A DNA stretch of 17,961 nucleotides from a bacterium. GTDB taxonomy: Bacteria > Armatimonadota > Zipacnadia > Zipacnadales > Zipacnadaceae. A model generated the notes under the pieces. That model did no database searches. It saw nothing but the letters and a program-made list of their open reading frames with translations, and was not told the origin of the DNA. Positions within the stretch are counted from its first letter, which is position 1; every line of letters starts with the position of its first letter. Made by a program: the position numbers and the translations under genes. The DNA lies in NCBI GenBank assembly GCA_030603495.1, contig JAUVXR010000041.1, positions 1-17,961 of the forward strand. The letters are read 5' to 3'. Shown in pieces: positions 12,825 to 16,980 of this stretch.

Positions 12825-13847
12825 CTATCGCACCGGCACGCTTACTCGTGCGCATTCGTGGGTCGCACTGGCGTAGATCGCCTCGGTCAGCTCCAGGGAC
12901 TTGGCCCCGTCCCCCAGATCCGCGCCCTGCTCGGGCGGGCGACCTTCGCGCAGGCACTGCACGAAACAGGCTACTTCGCTGGCGTAGCCACACAGGTCAA
13001 CACCATTGACGGAAATCCAACTGGGCCGCGCGGCGTCCAGCCGATGGGCGAAGGGCTGGGGATTATCGACACGGTCGGGTGCGGAGGGCCGGTGGTGCGT
13101 GAGGTAGATCATCTCTTCCACCTGGACCGATTCGCCTACGCCGGTACAACGCAGCCCTTCGCCGATGTCTACCCACGGATTCTCCTCGGCGCCTTCGAGC
13201 GTGTTGAGGTTCATTACCCCGATTGCGCCACTGGCGAACTGGAGTGTCACCAGCAGGCCTACGCGGTCGGCGCTCAGATAGCGCTGGGTTGCCTGCACCC
13301 AGTTGACCTCACCACCCATGAAGCGGACCAGGTCAAAGATGTGGCAGAGCTGTCCGGTCAGGAATGCTATCAACCTATCTTCGATACCTGCCCACGGGGG
13401 AAACGGCCCCTGCGCAAACCTTACCTCCAGCATCTGGAGCCCGCCGAACTCCGCGCTTTCGATGATTCGGCGCGCCTCGACGTAACCCGGCGCAAAGCGC
13501 TTCATGAAGGCGACCATGCCCCATGCCCCATTGTCCTCGGCGACTTGGGCCAGCTTACGAGCCTCGGGCACGTCAATACCCGAGGGTTTCTCCACAAAGA
13601 TCGGCAGCCCAGCCATGAGCACTTGCTTGCCCACCTCGCACATCATCTGCGGAAGTCCACAGATGTACACTCCGTCGAGTTGCTCGCTGCTGAGCATCTC
13701 GGCTACGTCAGTGTAGACCTTGCCGCCACCAAACCAGCGGGCATTTCGCTCCGCTTTCTCTCGGTTGAGATCGCATACTGCGACCAGATCAAGGTCAGGG
13801 ATCTTGTGCAGGTGCGGATAGAGGGCACTCGTGGCGTGACCACCTGT
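12825..13847 (-). CDS. Gfo/Idh/MocA-family oxidoreductase, N-terminus lost at a join
   Basis: These enzymes are NAD(P)-dependent dehydrogenases of sugars, inositols and related compounds. The frame from 13847 downward encodes TGGHATSALYPHLHKIPDL, then DLVAVCDLNREKAERNA, the GVYICGLPQ strand, the catalytic VEKPSGIDVPEA motif and GQLCHIFDLVRFMGG. The frame extends the homology about 50 residues before the first ATG (13697), so that ATG is not the original start. Only the first dozen or so residues (the strand leading into the G-x-G motif) are missing. They are replaced, out of frame, by URO-D-fold gene sequence. As it stands the gene has no proper start or ribosome-binding site, and an internal start would lose the nucleotide-binding fold. 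It is the last gene of the cluster. Confidence 0.85.
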   Translation of the reverse strand, partial: TGGHATSALYPHLHKIPDLDLVAVCDLNREKAERNARWFGGGKVYTDVAEMLSSEQLDGVYICGLPQMMCEVGKQVLMAGLPIFVEKPSGIDVPEARKLAQVAEDNGAWGMVAFMKRFAPGYVEARRIIESAEFGGLQMLEVRFAQGPFPPWAGIEDRLIAFLTGQLCHIFDLVRFMGGEVNWVQATQRYLSADRVGLLVTLQFASGAIGVMNLNTLEGAEENPWVDIGEGLRCTGVGESVQVEEMIYLTHHRPSAPDRVDNPQPFAHRLDAARPSWISVNGVDLCGYASEVACFVQCLREGRPPEQGADLGDGAKSLELTEAIYASATHECARVSVPVR

Positions 13848-14559
13848 TGAAGAAGCCGGGCAGTTGTATATCGCTGGAGAAATTGTCGCCCATTACGACT
13901 ATCTCGGCTGGTGAACCAGCCAGCAGATTAATCAGCCGCAGGTTGTTCTCGTTTATTGTGTCCACCACTTCGCGCATAAGCTCCGGCCAGTCAGCGCAGG
14001 CATACACGGTGCTCTCCACTCCCATCCACAGACTGAGCAGGTAGCCCATAGCACTGTAGCCTGCTGAAATGTAGACAACGCCGCAATCACCTACTTCTTC
14101 GGCCCAGGCCTGGTACCGATCCCAGCGTGGAACGAAACGTCGGCTGCCTAAAGCATATGCGAGTACCTGGAGGTCCCGTTTACCAGAGACTCCCCAATCC
14201 CTTATCGCCCACGAATAAGAGCAGGGCTCCCACACACGTCTGCGCTGAATAGTCCCCAGAGGAGTGTTGATGCACCAGCTAATCTCCGGGTCGCCATTGC
14301 GTACCCGTTTAGTGGTTTCTAGGCGGACATCATTACCGTAGCGAGCCTGGTAGAAGCTAGCGTTGTTAGCAATGTAGAAGCCGGCCCCTACCTTCCTGTG
14401 GTAGCTAATCAGGTCATATTGAGGTTCGTCGCACGGCTGGGACAGGTCCCAGGGCAAATCGAACTTGTGCAAGAACCAATGGGAGATGTCCAACATGAAG
14501 GGAACAACGTCGGGTACCTCGCCCCGGTACACCGAGAGAATCCTCTCGCGTATGGTCAC
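13795..14559 (-). CDS. Uroporphyrinogen decarboxylase-fold protein, 3' end lost at a join
   Basis: The visible 254 residues look like a URO-D/MtaA-like family member: an N-terminal TIRERILSVYRGEVPDVVPF, a central GVVYISAGYSAMG region, the helix WPELMREVVDTINENNLRL and the strand VVMGDNFSSDIQ. After FFNRWSR (about residues 236-242) family likeness stops. The last dozen residues are the neighbouring Gfo/Idh/MocA gene read in the wrong frame, ending at a chance TGA. Family members run about 330-400 residues, so a C-terminal third or so is missing. GTG at 14559 is preferred over TTG at 14580 because family proteins begin near this point and GGAAGG lies upstream, though the spacing is long. Relatives decarboxylate or move methyl groups, often to corrinoid or thiol acceptors; the substrate is unknown. 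It follows the fusion gene by about 60 nt. Confidence 0.75.
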   Translation of the reverse strand: MTIRERILSVYRGEVPDVVPFMLDISHWFLHKFDLPWDLSQPCDEPQYDLISYHRKVGAGFYIANNASFYQARYGNDVRLETTKRVRNGDPEISWCINTPLGTIQRRRVWEPCSYSWAIRDWGVSGKRDLQVLAYALGSRRFVPRWDRYQAWAEEVGDCGVVYISAGYSAMGYLLSLWMGVESTVYACADWPELMREVVDTINENNLRLINLLAGSPAEIVVMGDNFSSDIQLPGFFNRWSRHECPLSAPAQDP

Positions 14560-14621
14560 TTGCTGTCTGTTCCTTCCCAATCGTTCTTTCGGAGCACTAC
14601 CTTGCTGCCTGGGGCAGGCTA

Positions 14622-16949
14622 TTAGTCTCCCATAAGCCTTTGGAACCCCGTCTCCGCTACCGGTCCATCCAAGCGCTCTTCCACGCTGCCTTTGTCAAGT
14701 GCGTCCGCGACTTGCTCAAAGGCCACCTCCGCCGCTTGTTCGTAGCGAGCCAGTATTGCGTCCGTGTGCGCCAGTGTTGGGTAGAATAGACAATGGTCGA
14801 GGAACCCCTGCCGCAGCATCAGTTGAGTGTACAGTGTGCGCAGCTCTTCGCGTAGTTCGTGGTCGAAATGGAAGTGGGCTAAGCAGGGATACCCCTCACC
14901 TACTATTGCCGGCACACCATACTTCCGGACTTTGCTTTGCCAGCAATCCTGGACGCGACGGCCAACCCTGGCCACATGAGCTGGAACGTCAATCTGCTGC
15001 ATTTTGCGCAGCGTTGCTAGGGCAGCCACCGGGCCAACCGACTCCGTCCAATATGTACTGCTGATAAAGGATTCATGAGCGCCGTCCATTGCCGCCTCTG
15101 TACCGATGATGGCCGCTATGGGGTGACCGTTGCCCAGAGCCTTCGCGAAAACCGCTATATCCGGCTGTACGCCCAATCTAAGGTGCGCCCCTCCGAAGTG
15201 GAGTCGCCAACCAATGGTAATCTCATCATAGACCAGAACTGCGCCACATTCGTGGGTTCGGTCTCTAACCATCGCCAAAAACCCCGGTTGCGGGTCGTGG
15301 TGGCGGCAAGGCTCCATGACCACCGCCGCCAGGCGATCTCCGGCCTTCTGCATGACCTGCTCGAATTCTTCGGTGTCTTCGTAGTGAAAGGCCAGTGTCG
15401 TTCCCTGCAACTCCCTCGGAACCCCTAGCGGGTCCAGGCCCGCCATCGGCATGAGGTGACCGCGCAAAGCGTCGGGCTCACCCAGATTCGCCGCCAGATA
15501 CCAGTCGTGCCAGCCGTGGTAACCGCAGATGGCTACCACCGATCTATCGGTGGTAGCTCGAGCGATCCGTACCGCCAGCGCCATAGCTTCCCCGCCGGTT
15601 CGGGCAAACCGCACCTGTTGCGCCCAGGGATGAATCTCGCATAACATGTCGGCCAATAGCACCTCTTCGGGCGGGTTCAGCGTAGACATGCTGCCGAGAT
15701 TGACGCGTCTTTTCACCGCCTGCGTCACGTCAGGATCGCGAAACCCTAACAAGCAGGAGCCGATGCCGTTGGTTGACATATCGTAGTAGTGCCGGCCGTC
15801 CAGGTCCCAGGTCTCACAACCGCGCGCCTCCCGGAAGTAGGCCGGCCATTGCCCGGGCGCCATTTTCTCGGGACGCTTGCTGAGAAGCTGAGTGCCTCCC
15901 GGAATGCGCCGGCGTGCCTCCTGGTAGACGCTTTGCGTCACATTGCCAGGTTTCTCGTCAAGGCCGAGAAGACTGACCGCGTTCCCGTAGAAGATACCCT
16001 CGAAATCCTCCTCGCTTAGCCCAAAGTAGTCCCCCGCATCCCGCAGAGCCCGTAGTGACTCCAGTCCTACCAGCGCTGGGCGACAAGAGGTCACGTAGTC
16101 CTGCCAGGAGATATTATCAGGCTGTAGCCAGGCAAAGCCGTCGCCGATGGTAACACATCGTCCCCGCAGCTCAGAGACGGGGAAGTCACTACCCCACATC
16201 AGCCGGTGGGGGCCGAACTGCTGGAGAATCGCAACCAACGCTCCCGGCTCGCAGATCCCGGAGGTGTCGAACCAGACATTTTCCAGACCCCGCAAGCTTC
16301 CGATACCCTCAACTGTATTATAGGCGTTGAACCCCCGCGCCGCGTGGCAGAGAATCAGGCGAGCTCCAGGATAGCTTTCACACATCTGGCGTATCTCAAC
16401 CTGGTTCTCCTCGTCGCGCAGGGCCCCCCACTTGACCAGATGCAAAAGAATCACTAGTTCCCTCTCGTCCGCTAACGACCACACCCATGGGGGGAGGAAG
16501 CTGCGAATGGAGGCGTTGAAGGTGGGCTCTTCACTGCTGAATACGTTGTAGCACTTGAAGCCTGCTACCTGGGGATTATCGGCCAATCGGGCCAGCTTTG
16601 CTTCGTCTGTCTCAGGGGAGAGCATCAGCAATCCCCGGCTTGATGCGCAATGCGCAGTCTGTTCCAGGATGAACTCGTTGGCTGCATCTATGTCGCCACC
16701 CGCACTCGGGAAAGGGATAAATAGCCCACCTTCAAGACGCGATGACCCGACCTGTTTTGAAAGATGCTGATGCCAGACTTCCCTCGTGACTTCTGGCGGC
16801 CCCTGAGTAATGAAGGGCGAGACAGAGTCACCCAGATCTTTGTGCCGATACAGATGGGCGTGAAAATCAAATAGCTTGGGGGGTAAGAAATCGCAAAGCT
16901 CCTCGAGCAGTTCCTCGTCTACCGAATTGAAAGTCCAACTCTCGGTCAC
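14622..16949 (-). CDS. Fused amidohydrolase (TIM barrel) and class-III PLP aminotransferase
   Basis: One uninterrupted 775-residue protein with two enzyme domains. Residues 1-330 form an amidohydrolase_2-type barrel: H30-A-H32 after FDF, K132 in GFKCYN, H170, H202 in LILCHAARGF and D255 in MWGSDFP, ending in the usual YGNAVSLLGL. After a linker of about 15 residues, 345-755 form a class-III aminotransferase of the glutamate-1-semialdehyde aminomutase type: RRRIPGGTQLLSKRPE, WDLDGRHYYDMS, GYHGWHDW, Y-D575-E and the PLP lysine K603 in FAKALGNGHP. Both active sites look intact. The frame is open to a GTG at 16967, but the GTG at 16949 is chosen because AGGAGG ends 9 nt before it. It leads a cluster with the URO-D-fold and Gfo/Idh/MocA genes. 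The substrate is unknown; a linked amine-forming and hydrolytic or decarboxylating step is inferred. Confidence 0.88.
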   Translation of the reverse strand: MTESWTFNSVDEELLEELCDFLPPKLFDFHAHLYRHKDLGDSVSPFITQGPPEVTREVWHQHLSKQVGSSRLEGGLFIPFPSAGGDIDAANEFILEQTAHCASSRGLLMLSPETDEAKLARLADNPQVAGFKCYNVFSSEEPTFNASIRSFLPPWVWSLADERELVILLHLVKWGALRDEENQVEIRQMCESYPGARLILCHAARGFNAYNTVEGIGSLRGLENVWFDTSGICEPGALVAILQQFGPHRLMWGSDFPVSELRGRCVTIGDGFAWLQPDNISWQDYVTSCRPALVGLESLRALRDAGDYFGLSEEDFEGIFYGNAVSLLGLDEKPGNVTQSVYQEARRRIPGGTQLLSKRPEKMAPGQWPAYFREARGCETWDLDGRHYYDMSTNGIGSCLLGFRDPDVTQAVKRRVNLGSMSTLNPPEEVLLADMLCEIHPWAQQVRFARTGGEAMALAVRIARATTDRSVVAICGYHGWHDWYLAANLGEPDALRGHLMPMAGLDPLGVPRELQGTTLAFHYEDTEEFEQVMQKAGDRLAAVVMEPCRHHDPQPGFLAMVRDRTHECGAVLVYDEITIGWRLHFGGAHLRLGVQPDIAVFAKALGNGHPIAAIIGTEAAMDGAHESFISSTYWTESVGPVAALATLRKMQQIDVPAHVARVGRRVQDCWQSKVRKYGVPAIVGEGYPCLAHFHFDHELREELRTLYTQLMLRQGFLDHCLFYPTLAHTDAILARYEQAAEVAFEQVADALDKGSVEERLDGPVAETGFQRLMGD

Positions 16950-16958
16950 AGTATAGTA

Positions 16959-16980
16959 CCTCCTCACTTCCCGAAGGAAG
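16959..16980 (-). promoter_or_regulatory. UUCG-capped hairpin next to a strong ribosome-binding site
   Basis: On the minus strand, CTTCC, loop TTCG, GGAAG (16967-16980 region) forms a perfect five-pair stem with a C(UUCG)G tetraloop. Two nt later comes AGGAGG (16959-16964), then a 9-nt spacer to the GTG at 16949. This fixes the start codon of the fusion gene. The stem could protect the leader or modulate ribosome access. Confidence 0.5.

Follow-up and report, generated by a model that had tools for sequence, protein, structure and literature searches.

A fused amidohydrolase and class-III aminotransferase found in many bacterial phyla, with a tentative role in sugar catabolism

The fused gene and its surroundings

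In the window (the whole stretch of 17,961 nucleotides that was analysed), a single minus-strand reading frame of 775 codons runs uninterrupted from a GTG at 16949-16947 to a stop at 14624-14622 and encodes an amidohydrolase followed by a class-III aminotransferase (Table 1). The preliminary description had given its coordinates correctly without naming the strand. An alternative in-frame GTG at 16967, which would yield a protein of 781 aa, starts just 5' of the Shine-Dalgarno sequence GAGGAGGT and overlaps that site; the GTG at 16949 is preferred because GAGGAGGT is spaced 8 nt before it. Pfam recognizes Amidohydro_2 (PF04909; E 1.6e-18, 68.0 bits against a gathering cutoff of 26.4) and then, with no overlap, Aminotran_3 (PF00202; E 8.9e-37, 127.2 bits against a gathering cutoff of 30.5).

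The residues that had been proposed as the two active sites (H30, H32, H202, D255, D575 and K603) are correct in the 775-aa numbering and invariant in all 36 aligned fused homologues; K132 and H170, absent from that earlier list, are invariant in the same 36, and with them every ligand position typical of the amidohydrolase superfamily (HxH, K, H, H, D) is accounted for. The arrangement is that of Amidohydro_2, with HxH on strand 1, histidines on strands 5 and 6, and the aspartate on strand 8 of the TIM barrel, while the C-terminal half has the class-III combination of a PLP lysine (K603) and a DE motif (D575, E576). The active-site residues are also kept in 8 standalone N-domains and in 53-54 of 54 standalone C-domains.

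Table 1. Features of the fused gene, its flank, and a related operon in the same genome
Feature	Position	Strand	Evidence or remark
Fused amidohydrolase / class-III aminotransferase gene (775 aa)	14622..16949	minus	ORF, Pfam, 39 non-redundant fused loci
Shine-Dalgarno GAGGAGGT	16965-16958	minus	read in sequence; 8 nt ahead of GTG 16949
N-terminal Amidohydro_2 TIM barrel, residues 1-330	15960..16949	minus	Pfam, invariant columns, model pLDDT 95.2
N-domain ligand-position residues H30, H32, K132, H170, H202, D255		minus	invariant columns
Inter-domain segment, residues 321-352	15894..15989	minus	31 residues separating invariant F320 and G352
C-terminal class-III aminotransferase, residues 336-775	14625..15944	minus	Pfam, NCBIfam, PDB relatives, invariant columns
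C-domain K603 (PLP lysine), D575, E576		minus	invariant columns
Residues 485-507, predicted disordered	15429..15497	minus	pLDDT <50; placed by GSAM alignment
URO-D-like gene, 3'-truncated	13795..14580	minus	41 bp downstream of fused gene
Gfo/Idh/MocA oxidoreductase gene, 5'-truncated	12825..13697	minus	Pfam; frame open upstream to ~13820
Gfo12-HpaI-SDR4-Gfo operon	L134 7249-10753 (G000 contig C26)		

The flank of the fused gene carries URO-D and Gfo/Idh genes, without BNR or HpaI. The URO-D-like gene, which is probably the operon partner of the fused gene, has no Pfam match by itself; its product is 37% identical to the URO-D protein of locus L042 (over residues 20-251 of 385), which does match Pfam URO-D, and 27% identical to that of L120. 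A three-frame translation of 13690-13830 on the minus strand places the meeting point of the URO-D and Gfo/Idh frames near 13820: the former gene is without its last third and the latter without its first residues, and the URO-D gene of L042 is full length. The junction is either a deletion or an assembly join.

Reality and spread of the fusion

The domain pairing lies far beyond chance, as 39 non-redundant loci recovered in the homologue search encode the two-domain protein. It is present in at least nine phyla; a wider scan with one genome per species found it in Bacteroidota, Lentisphaerota, Hydrogenedentota, Spirochaetota, Verrucomicrobiota, Planctomycetota, Bacillota and Acidobacteriota. 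Full-length homologues in the window's own class are 64% (G038), 62% (G018) and 61% (G017) identical, and four fused loci belong to named isolate assemblies: Membranihabitans marinus (two strains), Chitinophaga alhagiae and Paenibacillus contaminans. Among 36 aligned fused proteins the spacing between F320 and G352 is 31 residues in 16 and 31-36 in 33 (the rest having 40, 41 and 64). The judgement reached in the preliminary description, that the fusion is genuine, is upheld by its recurrence in independent genomes, isolates included, and by a linker of nearly fixed length. An assembly or join artefact might be suspected from the truncated URO-D / Gfo/Idh junction 0.8 kb away on the same contig, but dozens of independent assemblies, among them those of isolates, share this architecture, mostly with a linker of 31-36 residues; we give an artefact a negligible probability and reject it.

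Adjacent but separate versions, also envisaged earlier, do exist, in tandem at loci L054 and L057 and divergently oriented at L077. Genomes G020 and G023 encode the amidohydrolase half by itself, its active site unchanged, and a separate Amidohydro_2 gene, missed by the N-domain search, lies near a standalone aminotransferase at L118, L082 and L102. In a tree of the aminotransferase domain built by a quick method, the fused label changes six times (gains and losses pooled), at least four of the changes being forced by well-supported branches. The plasmid collection yielded no fused protein; matches there cover the aminotransferase half only. Comparison across genomes indicates that the protein is truly a bifunctional enzyme. 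Both domains are known and their pairing is undescribed in the searchable literature: the preliminary description knew of no characterised enzyme with it, and literature searches gave nothing relevant, as did those for legionaminic or pseudaminic acid catabolism.

Two close homologues of the fused gene, in G034:C199 (L010) and G015:C268 (L009), are frame-broken in these assemblies.

Relatives of the two halves

The best structural matches of the N-terminal domain are 4do7 and 4dlf (Z 23.1 and 22.8), COG3618 entries for a Burkholderia multivorans protein that we take to be the L-fuconolactonase BmulJ_04915, which fits the organism in the entry title. This L-fucono-1,5-lactonase and the N-terminal half are both Amidohydro_2 TIM barrels, with the top structural Z of 23.1, but the two are only 18-19% identical and BmulJ_04915 is not fused. 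It is cited as a bacterial L-fuconolactonase of COG3618 in PMC11293516. The next match is isoorotate decarboxylase (Z 21.6), followed by a mixture of lactonases and decarboxylases; many decarboxylases score Z 18.6-21.6 (VIA), 1.5-4 units under the best lactonases, and the top Foldseek rows list lactonases, decarboxylases, LigY and LigJ at near-equal scores. Three N-domains searched against NCBIfam at E 1e-4 matched no family, lactonase models such as that of L-fuconolactonase (NF052480) being among the unmatched. Since no NCBIfam model matches and the decarboxylase Z-scores follow closely, the case for lactonase chemistry is a slight one. Lactone hydrolysis nonetheless stands, if weakly, as the leading candidate assignment for this half, on account of a fold that leans towards COG3618, of neighbours resembling those of deoxyhexose pathways, and of the separate amidohydrolase of L102, for which fuconolactonase and sulfomuconolactone-hydrolase models give sub-cutoff matches (E 3e-26 and 6e-18).

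The C-terminal half most resembles the aminopentol aminotransferase FumI (Z 40.8), with GSAM structures at about 38 (VIA). FumI (6hbs/6hbv) is a catabolic aminotransferase, 24% identical to the C-terminal half, not fused, and with another substrate; in fumonisin catabolism it acts after a separate hydrolase. A sugar C-6' aminotransferase is also among the PDB sequence relatives (E 7e-36). The best NCBIfam model is the GSAM-like PRK06209 (E 2.9e-64; 217.2 against a cutoff of 486), and the HemL model TIGR00713 gives 172.4 against 527.3. With GSAM (HemL) and PRK06209 the C-terminal half shares the fold, the PLP lysine, the DE motif and a GSAM-like loop; it differs from GSAM in being only about 25% identical, in carrying an amidohydrolase, and in having sugar-catabolic neighbours. 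Because its scores with HemL models fall far under the cutoff, we do not file it as GSAM; that identity is rejected, all HemL/GSAM scores lying far below the curated cutoffs. Residues 485-507 presumably occupy the place of GSAM's mobile gating loop, and in the model this disordered segment is probably the counterpart of that loop in the aminomutase.

Closer relatives are uncharacterised aminotransferases encoded in SpsF/SpsG/NeuB clusters, which have the same conserved residues and are about 48-58% identical to the C-terminal half; they are standalone, with biosynthetic surroundings that none of the 42 fused or split loci share. Fused and standalone aminotransferases differ systematically at only two positions, R414 and R415, which suggests, as far as sequence can tell, that their substrates are similar.

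Gene neighbourhoods

Genes within five positions were compared between 42 fused or split loci and 40 loci of the best-matching standalone aminotransferases, one of the 40 (in L119) being a terminal fragment of a fused copy whose frame is disrupted. NeuB, SpsF or SpsG lies within this distance at 24 of the 40, and these 24 count as nonulosonic-acid biosynthesis clusters; neither these genes nor a DegT aminotransferase was found within five genes of any of the 42 fused or split loci. Conversely, sialidase-like BNR propellers accompany 17/42 fused or split loci and 0/24 of the biosynthetic ones (Fisher p 1e-4, an optimistic value, as are all such neighbourhood p-values, given simple ORF calling and partly related loci and genomes). 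The separation of the two aminotransferase settings is nearly complete. BNR_2 proteins are not all sialidases.

Recurrent neighbours of the fused genes are an HpcH/HpaI aldolase, Gfo12 (a short Gfo/Idh family), SDR4, an aldo/keto reductase, and SSF or MFS transporters; in Chitinophaga alhagiae they run MFS - fused - HpaI - AKR - Gfo12 - SDR4. DHDPS/NanA-like or MR/MLE enzymes are occasional: a NanA-like lyase is nearby in L079, and MR/MLE dehydratases, which likewise occur in the bacterial L-fucose pathway, are present at 4/42 loci. SDR4 and AKR are shared by the catabolic-type and the biosynthetic contexts, and the contexts of fused and split loci differ considerably from phylum to phylum. 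To our knowledge, the non-phosphorylative fucose pathway has no aminotransferase. In their dehydrogenases, lactonases, dehydratases and aldolases the neighbours resemble non-phosphorylative deoxyhexose pathways, and in particular the non-phosphorylative fucose pathway (PMC11293516).

Class-III aminotransferases lying between SpsF and SpsG/NeuB (L071, L076, L080, L084, L086, L133 and others) come from many phyla and a haloarchaeal plasmid; that of Halorussus aquaticus is an annotated case, with an N-acetylneuraminate synthase family protein, a DegT aminotransferase, SDRs and Gfo/Idh. The spsF and spsG genes of Bacillus subtilis are part of a legionaminic-acid pathway (PMC7439481).

A possible catabolic role and its alternatives

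From these neighbours we hypothesize, with less than even confidence, that the fused protein takes part in breaking down an amino sugar or sugar acid by a non-phosphorylative route, the substrate plausibly stemming from nonulosonic-acid-type glycans. The sugar would be released by sialidase-like BNR propellers, imported by SSF or MFS transporters, and oxidised to a lactone or keto form by Gfo/Idh, SDR or aldo/keto-reductase enzymes; the amidohydrolase half, with its putative metal site H30/H32/H170/H202/D255 and K132, would hydrolyse the lactone, the GSAM-like half would swap the amine for a carbonyl via K603-PLP, and the HpcH/HpaI aldolase, or a NanA-like lyase, would split off pyruvate. Fusion would couple two steps of a single pathway at a fixed ratio, perhaps with channelling of an unstable intermediate. 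That the two halves act on consecutive intermediates is plausible in light of their intact sites, the split forms, and the shared pathway neighbours. Several findings weigh against the catabolic role: a BNR neighbour is present at no more than 17 of the 42 loci, and such proteins need not be sialidases; contexts vary between phyla; the fused gene of the window is itself flanked by URO-D and Gfo/Idh in place of BNR or HpaI, and a BNR query of its genome gave no match; and the standalone aminotransferases of nonulosonic-acid biosynthesis are closely related to the C-terminal half.

The last of these belongs equally to the case for an anabolic enzyme, one whose product, a modified amino sugar or nonulosonic acid, is destined for the cell surface, as is probably true of the standalone aminotransferases; the kinship with aminotransferases encoded between SpsF and SpsG/NeuB, the mere two positions that separate fused from standalone forms, and the presence of SDR4 and AKR in both contexts would all agree with it. 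We nevertheless consider it unlikely, because NeuB, SpsF, SpsG and the DegT aminotransferase are absent from all 42 neighbourhoods, and the BNR propellers, symporters and HpaI aldolase indicate degradation. Nonulosonic acids bear acylated amines, and an N-deacylase that frees such an amine (of an N-acetylated amino sugar, for instance) for removal by the aminotransferase half would be the simplest chemical motive for joining the two activities, and would suit the NanA-like lyase of L079 and the BNR propellers as well; this has somewhat better prospects than the anabolic enzyme and is still improbable, given that the nearest folds are Amidohydro_2 lactonases, decarboxylases and hydratases, with no amino-sugar amide hydrolase among the top matches.

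Those same folds would allow the amidohydrolase half to be a decarboxylase or hydratase of the ACMSD, resorcylate-decarboxylase or LigJ type, its step either preceding or following the transamination of a keto acid; the near-equal Foldseek rows and the Z-scores of the many decarboxylases speak for this reading. It seems to us less probable than either a deacylase or an anabolic enzyme: the neighbours point to sugars rather than aromatics, the two top Z-scores are those of COG3618 entries, and a lactonase-family amidohydrolase fills the slot in L102. Finally, one half might be catalytic and the other a scaffold or regulator, for which there is precedent among fused proteins generally; since neither half varies in its metal or PLP residues, whatever the phylum and also where the two are split, we regard this as very improbable.

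If the catabolic role is correct, the fused protein could belong to an undescribed, widespread pathway for the catabolism of nonulosonic-acid-like amino sugars, with the lactonase-transaminase fusion as its signature enzyme and an aminotransferase family reused degradatively from the biosynthesis of such sugars; this broader proposal is more doubtful than the role itself, though not as improbable as the alternatives above. In little-studied environmental bacteria, including Zipacnadia, Planctomycetota, Verrucomicrobiota, Lentisphaerota and Spirochaetota, the fusion is the marker of a gene set that recurs, bears a sugar-degradation signature and has no assigned pathway. It also places in a catabolic context an uncharacterised family of aminotransferases that is common in operons for nonulosonic-acid biosynthesis. 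As that family bridges both settings, an assay of the fused or the standalone form could reveal the step that each performs. As one reagent, the fused protein offers two active sites to test, with point mutants predicted for each.

Related genes in the window's genome and elsewhere

The recurrent neighbour families are absent from the flank of the window's fused gene, but contig C26 of its genome holds Gfo12 (68%), HpaI (62%) and an SDR4 relative in one operon (Table 1). The query genes came from other genomes, so this result tests the association of the gene set independently. A single BNR query, run with no positive control, found no match in this genome. Next to the C26 operon are a CHB_HEX_C/beta-helix protein and a sulfatase gene that falls into two frames. 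Elsewhere in the genome (L135 8873-11506, G000 contig C1), a NeuB-like gene of 631 aa follows a nucleotidyltransferase-like gene, with no class-III aminotransferase beside it.

A DUF6785/DUF6784 family adjoins a fused gene, a standalone N-terminal half and standalone C-terminal halves (L040 4856-7717, L120 5497-7392, L123, L128). In Paenibacillus contaminans (L065 3193-10256), a fused copy and a standalone aminotransferase lie about 3 kb apart; the latter is 65% identical to the window's and adjoins a DAO-type FAD oxidoreductase.
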